Below are positions 4,962 to 5,150 of a DNA stretch of 53,494 nt, piece after piece. The notes below the pieces were generated by a model. It did not search any database, was not told where the DNA came from, and was given only the letters and a program-made list of their open reading frames with translations. The stretch's first letter is position 1. Each line of letters starts with the position of its first letter. Source of the stretch: Bacillota bacterium (lineage in GTDB: Bacteria > Bacillota > Limnochordia > DTU087); contig JAAYQZ010000033.1 in assembly GCA_012519025.1 (NCBI GenBank), positions 1 to 53,494 on the forward strand. Direction: 5' to 3'. Both the position numbers and the translations under genes were made by a program.

Positions 4962-5011
4962 AAAAAAGGGATTCAAAGGCCGATGGGCGCAAACCAAAAG
5001 ACCAGAATCCC
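4962..5011 (-). terminator. Riboswitch expression-platform terminator ahead of flgB
   Basis: On the minus strand GGGATTC (5011-5005) pairs with GAATCCC (4974-4968), with an extra inner GGTC/GGCC pairing. Six T residues (4967-4962) follow immediately. It lies about 50 bases downstream of the c-di-GMP-I aptamer and 50 bases upstream of flgB, where a transcription-control platform is expected. It could stop RNA polymerase before the flagellar operon. Confidence 0.85.
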
Positions 5012-5065
5012 AAATTAACCGCTGAAAGCGCTGCCGTTGCTAGCCGCGCTTCGTAGTCTAATTGA

Positions 5066-5150
5066 GTAATCGGCGGTCCGGCTGCCATTGCTGCATTTGG
5101 CTTTAGGCCCGTGACTTTGCGTCACCGTCTTTCAACGGATTTGCCCTTGA
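5066..5150 (-). promoter_or_regulatory. Cyclic di-GMP class I (GEMM-I) riboswitch aptamer
   Basis: The minus strand carries the conserved GEMM-I elements in order: GGGCAAA; a P2 stem capped by GAAA (CCGTTGAAAGACGG); GACGCAAAG; GGCCTAAA; and the P3 tetraloop-receptor arm ATGGCAGCCGGACCGCCG. This matches the known class I c-di-GMP consensus base by base at the invariant positions. It lies in the leader of the flgB-fliI operon and is followed by an intrinsic terminator. By analogy with clostridial flagellar operons it is probably an OFF switch, with c-di-GMP favouring termination. The direction of switching is inference. Confidence 0.95.

Follow-up and report, generated by a model that had tools for sequence, protein, structure and literature searches.

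A conserved c-di-GMP-I riboswitch ahead of flgB as the likely OFF switch of a flagellar operon in a family of Bacillota

The window analysed here, a stretch of 53,494 nt that makes up an entire contig (JAAYQZ010000033.1) of a Bacillota bacterium of the class Limnochordia, carries towards one of its ends a flagellar operon encoded in the minus strand. Six genes follow each other in the order flgB-flgC-fliE-fliF-fliG-fliH: flgB (4911-4501; TIGR01396, 114.6 bits with a cut-off of 59), flgC (4487-4065; TIGR01395, 178.3 bits), fliE (4001-3711; PF02049, 93.0 bits), fliF (3631-2084; TIGR00206, 319.6 bits), fliG (2041-1028; PF01706, PF14842 and PF14841) and fliH (1035-220; PF02108, 52.8 bits), the contig ending soon after the last one. 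The leader of this operon holds, in the direction of transcription, a full-length c-di-GMP-I (GEMM-I) aptamer (5155-5069), a spacer of 57 nt (5068-5012) with a hairpin at about 5053-5024, an intrinsic terminator hairpin (5011-4968) and a tract of six U residues (4967-4962), with 157 nt between the end of the aptamer and the first codon of flgB. A first-pass annotation of the same DNA had located the element at 4962-5150, which is right and corresponds to the minus strand, left unstated there, and had placed flgB after the terminator, as the profile match confirms.

The identity of the aptamer is supported by the Rfam covariance model for c-di-GMP-I (RF01051), the check proposed in that annotation, which scored 75.0 bits (E 5.6e-13) against a gathering score of 35 bits over model positions 1-87 of 87. 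With respect to the Rfam family, the closing pair of P3 (A40-C81) and a few further pairs are non-standard. The match is the sole one above threshold across the window, and RF01051 is also the best-scoring member of its clan. The sequence AGCAACGGCAGC of the spacer resembles the 3′ part of the aptamer and suggested a decayed second copy, an idea that was set aside, without proof, given the one above-threshold Rfam match in the window. Regarding the ligand, the alignment to RF01051 places a G at model position 11, which a reading of this alignment equates with G11 of the Cd1 riboswitch, itself described as equivalent to G20 of Vc2 (PMC9262584). The same source presents the position as a selectivity factor and not as a hard filter, and a G20A change is reported to accompany cGAMP binding (PMC6274999). 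A ligand such as 3′,3′-cGAMP, recognised by a GEMM-Ib version of the motif, would use the same fold with a choice biased by a single base; the G found at the counterpart of Vc2 G20 and Cd1 G11 (PMC9262584; PMC6274999), together with RF01051 as best clan member, makes it a very improbable one, and is in favour of c-di-GMP as the presumed ligand.

The aptamer is not restricted to this genome. Matches to c-di-GMP-I were found in 11 of the 11 genomes of the family examined, that of the window included, adding up to 41, and in one other genome of the order no such match was detected. In the 31 loci out of these 41 that were readable, flgB was sought and found 11 times, once per genome and always downstream of the aptamer; six further contigs (L032-L037) were already among the family genomes and were excluded as further evidence. 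In these 11 leaders the end of the aptamer lies 113-157 bases from the first codon of flgB, with the window at the long extreme and the starts of the relatives' genes extrapolated from the alignment. Aptamers of the other flgB leaders score 74-87 bits, and the core columns are invariant in all 11. Compared with the ten leaders of the relatives (L004-L006, L009-L012, L014, L017 and L023), the window shares the aptamer, the terminator, flgB and, where it can be read, a SigH-like element further upstream, and differs in the longest spacer (57 vs. 21-52 nt), which has the extra hairpin. A further difference is the upstream gene, which is topA (7436-5313, minus strand) in place of hslU. As judged from C-terminal sequence, hslU precedes flgB in eight of the ten relatives, with confirmation by a hidden Markov model in L004 only (674 bits). 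The same-genus L014 shares the arrangement of the window, its upstream ORF having an end that resembles topA, and in L012, cut by the contig, the upstream gene is out of reach. A remnant of the end of hslU may survive.

The first-pass annotation also spoke of a strong intrinsic terminator. A terminator with a good U-tract is indeed present, but its strength was overstated, since its -16.5 kcal/mol make it the weakest among the 11 leaders (-17.9 to -25.8 kcal/mol for the remaining ten) and a simple terminator scan did not list it, because that scan takes loops of 3-8 bases and the stem has an internal loop/bulge. A stretch of 51 bases with all but the first base of the terminator gave a z score of -2.09 (7 of 200 shuffles as good), and the spacer region (5068-5008, minus strand) one of -2.73 (1 of 200). 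Among the relatives, a hairpin of 41-44 bases followed by a T-rich tail occurs 3′ of the aptamer in every one of the 11 leaders. On a trimmed alignment of these (A2; the alternative A1 puts the end of the window terminator one column off), 90.3% of the 154 cells of the stem are standard pairs, and 4 of its 14 pairs show changes on both sides, which do not count as independent events in leaders related to one another. The covariation score of the stem was 0.221, compared to 0.170 ± 0.020 for shuffled versions, 6 of 500 of which scored as high, and to 0.113 at most for slid versions. The 5′ arm varies less than the 3′ arm, which might have pointed to a double role; this argument was dropped, since changes from C to U or from A to G opposite a G/U-rich arm are tolerated in any case.

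How the aptamer may control this terminator was approached by equilibrium folding. In a ligand-free window transcript reaching past the terminator loop, the 3′ strand of P3 plus the next base (GGACCG, 5079-5074), which is the proposed switching strand, pairs with UGGUCU (5004-4999) with a mean probability of 0.87, and CUCAA (5066-5062) pairs with UUGGG (5013-5009) with a probability of about 0.83, enclosing the spacer hairpin. The probability of the terminator is about 0.00 in the free molecule and 0.94-0.96 when P3 is held folded; a separate set-up gave 0.02 for the free RNA and 0.96 for the folded aptamer. The model suggests these two helices as the favoured antiterminator, and imposing GGACCG/UGGUCU costs 0.3 kcal/mol relative to the free ensemble. 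In the free aptamer, P3 reaches a probability of about 0.05 by the nearest-neighbour model, which ignores tertiary contacts and ligand. A different antiterminator had been put forward in the first-pass annotation, where the 5′ strand of P2 (AATCC) of the same riboswitch would pair with GGATT in the terminator arm. Five Watson-Crick pairs are possible in this way, and few mononucleotide shuffles equal the isolated duplex in the window (a fraction of 0.066) or in L014 (0.034), an advantage not seen in the nine remaining leaders (0.18-0.66). Moreover, its pair probability did not exceed 0.01 at any transcript length tried (0.00-0.01), its cost was 5.3 kcal/mol over the free ensemble, compared with 0.3 kcal/mol for GGACCG/UGGUCU, and its share stayed at 0.00-0.01 in all 11 leaders, which leaves this pairing as a highly unlikely solution.

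With GGACCG as the switching strand, the steps of the mechanism would be as follows. The aptamer would be transcribed first and, without ligand, its GGACCG strand and the neighbouring CUCAA would pair with UGGUCU and UUGGG around the spacer hairpin, engaging the 5′ arm of the terminator, so that no terminator would form and flgB would be transcribed. Upon binding of c-di-GMP, P3 and P1 would retain the 3′ strand of the aptamer, leaving the 5′ arm free to close the terminator, and the RNA polymerase would stop in the U-tract.

Folding of the 11 leaders gave a common answer for the folded aptamer and a divided one for the free RNA. Given a folded aptamer, the probability of the terminator is 0.85-1.00 in 11 of 11 leaders. 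A switch of opposite sign, where binding of the ligand prevents termination, has a precedent in the ON switches with a near-identical aptamer, such as the one of pilM (PMC9262584), but a folded aptamer that coexists with the terminator is the arrangement described for the OFF switch Cd1 (PMC9262584), and the ON alternative appears scarcely credible. Without ligand, the probability of the terminator is 0.00-0.13 in four leaders (window, L011, L009 and L005) and 0.92-1.00 at equilibrium in the other seven, the same-genus L014 included; therefore, if the switch works in the latter, the competition must be kinetic, through the order of folding, or otherwise arranged. The same preference in 7 of 11 leaders would fit an attenuator that acts constitutively, its aptamer being decayed or unable to switch, a reading at odds with a full-length aptamer of 75 bits, with counterparts of 74-87 bits in the other flgB leaders and with invariant core columns, and to which very little weight can be given. 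Only in the five g2 leaders, which are close relatives of one another, does the complementarity between the terminator arm and the 3′ strand of the aptamer exceed that of shuffled arms (fractions of 0.014-0.042); the fraction is 0.13 in the window and 0.22-0.74 in the other five.

Altogether, a transcriptional OFF riboswitch of the c-di-GMP-I class acting on the flgB flagellar operon is the best explanation for this leader, and one that can be held with high confidence. The proposal of the first-pass annotation that flagellar genes would be shut off by early termination at high c-di-GMP gains support from the covariance model, from conservation in 11 of 11 genomes and from folding, and its sign is what we infer mainly from the architecture of the leader and from precedent. 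The precedent is the Cdi1_3/Cd1 riboswitch upstream of flgB in Clostridioides difficile, described as an OFF switch whose antiterminator combines strand A of the aptamer with strands T and H (PMC3649979, PMC9262584, PMC11477304) and uses the aptamer-stabilising strand (PMC9262584). According to those descriptions, both systems would have in common the aptamer class, the target operon, a terminator between aptamer and flgB, the participation of the 3′ strand of the aptamer in the antiterminator and the OFF sign, in a comparison at the level of architecture (PMC3649979, PMC9262584, PMC11477304). They differ in the size of the leader, short in the window (157 nt from the aptamer end to flgB) compared with a 5′UTR of 496 nt in C. 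difficile, which contains a genetic switch in addition, and in the upstream element, SigH-like in the window as opposed to a flgB promoter described as SigA-dependent in C. difficile (PMC7438776). The riboswitch of the window is thus a real, conserved and ordinary new example of the switch known from C. difficile, and it extends that flgB arrangement to a family of Bacillota known here from metagenome-assembled genomes. As aptamer and flgB come together in all 11 family genomes examined, control of motility by c-di-GMP through RNA is probably an old and stable trait of the family.

The upstream element mentioned above lies at 5224-5199 in the minus strand and reads GCAGGAATC-N11-GTGGAA. The pattern RNAGGAWWN-N11-GTGGAA, with a fixed spacing of 11 nt, precedes the aptamer by 16-43 nt in all ten leaders with enough upstream DNA, L012 being cut by the contig. 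With respect to the elements given for sigma-H, RNAGGAWWW and RNNGAATWW (PMC8510167), the T of GAAT is replaced by A or G in all ten leaders, and the third W is a C in the window and in L014. Across the genome, the core of the pattern was counted 14 times and a reversed control three times. The own genome encodes a SigH over the cut-off (375.5 bits, contig C132) and a paralogue in contig C163 (252.6 bits). A third SigH-like sigma factor adjoins rnc in the window itself (24916-24161, minus strand), with SigH as its closest match, although its 114 bits fall short of the cut-off of 294.8. The element is, as far as its motif goes, a candidate sigma-H promoter and a lead to follow. A two-input control throughout the family, where a sigma-H-type promoter of transition phase or sporulation would start the leader and the c-di-GMP-I riboswitch would decide on its completion, is conceivable, with the balance leaning somewhat against it. 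If true, flagella would be made only with sigma-H active and c-di-GMP low, a difference from C. difficile with its SigA promoter for flgB, and a real sigma-H-like element would couple motility to a transition-phase sigma factor.

As for the second messenger, 10 GGDEF and 3 EAL matches over the cut-off were found in the own genome, and an HD-domain protein encoded in the window (13496-12435, minus strand) carries the motif HHERVNGSGYP; we take it to be an HD-GYP protein and probably a c-di-GMP phosphodiesterase. The genome encodes c-di-GMP enzymes, a point in favour of the riboswitch reading.

Besides the window aptamer, its genome has two more c-di-GMP-I matches, which makes three in all. The second (contig C152) is followed by a hairpin and a T-run, and then by ORFs that by eye resemble CheW and a methyl-accepting chemotaxis protein; the third (contig C85) lies ahead of a long ORF that gave no NCBIfam match over the 479 residues read. 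Moreover, tandem c-di-GMP-I aptamers with starts 175-216 bases apart occur in 8 of the 11 family genomes (G001-G005, G008, G009 and G010; for instance, loci L027, L022 and L015), with a hairpin-like stretch between the two aptamers in L022 and L027.
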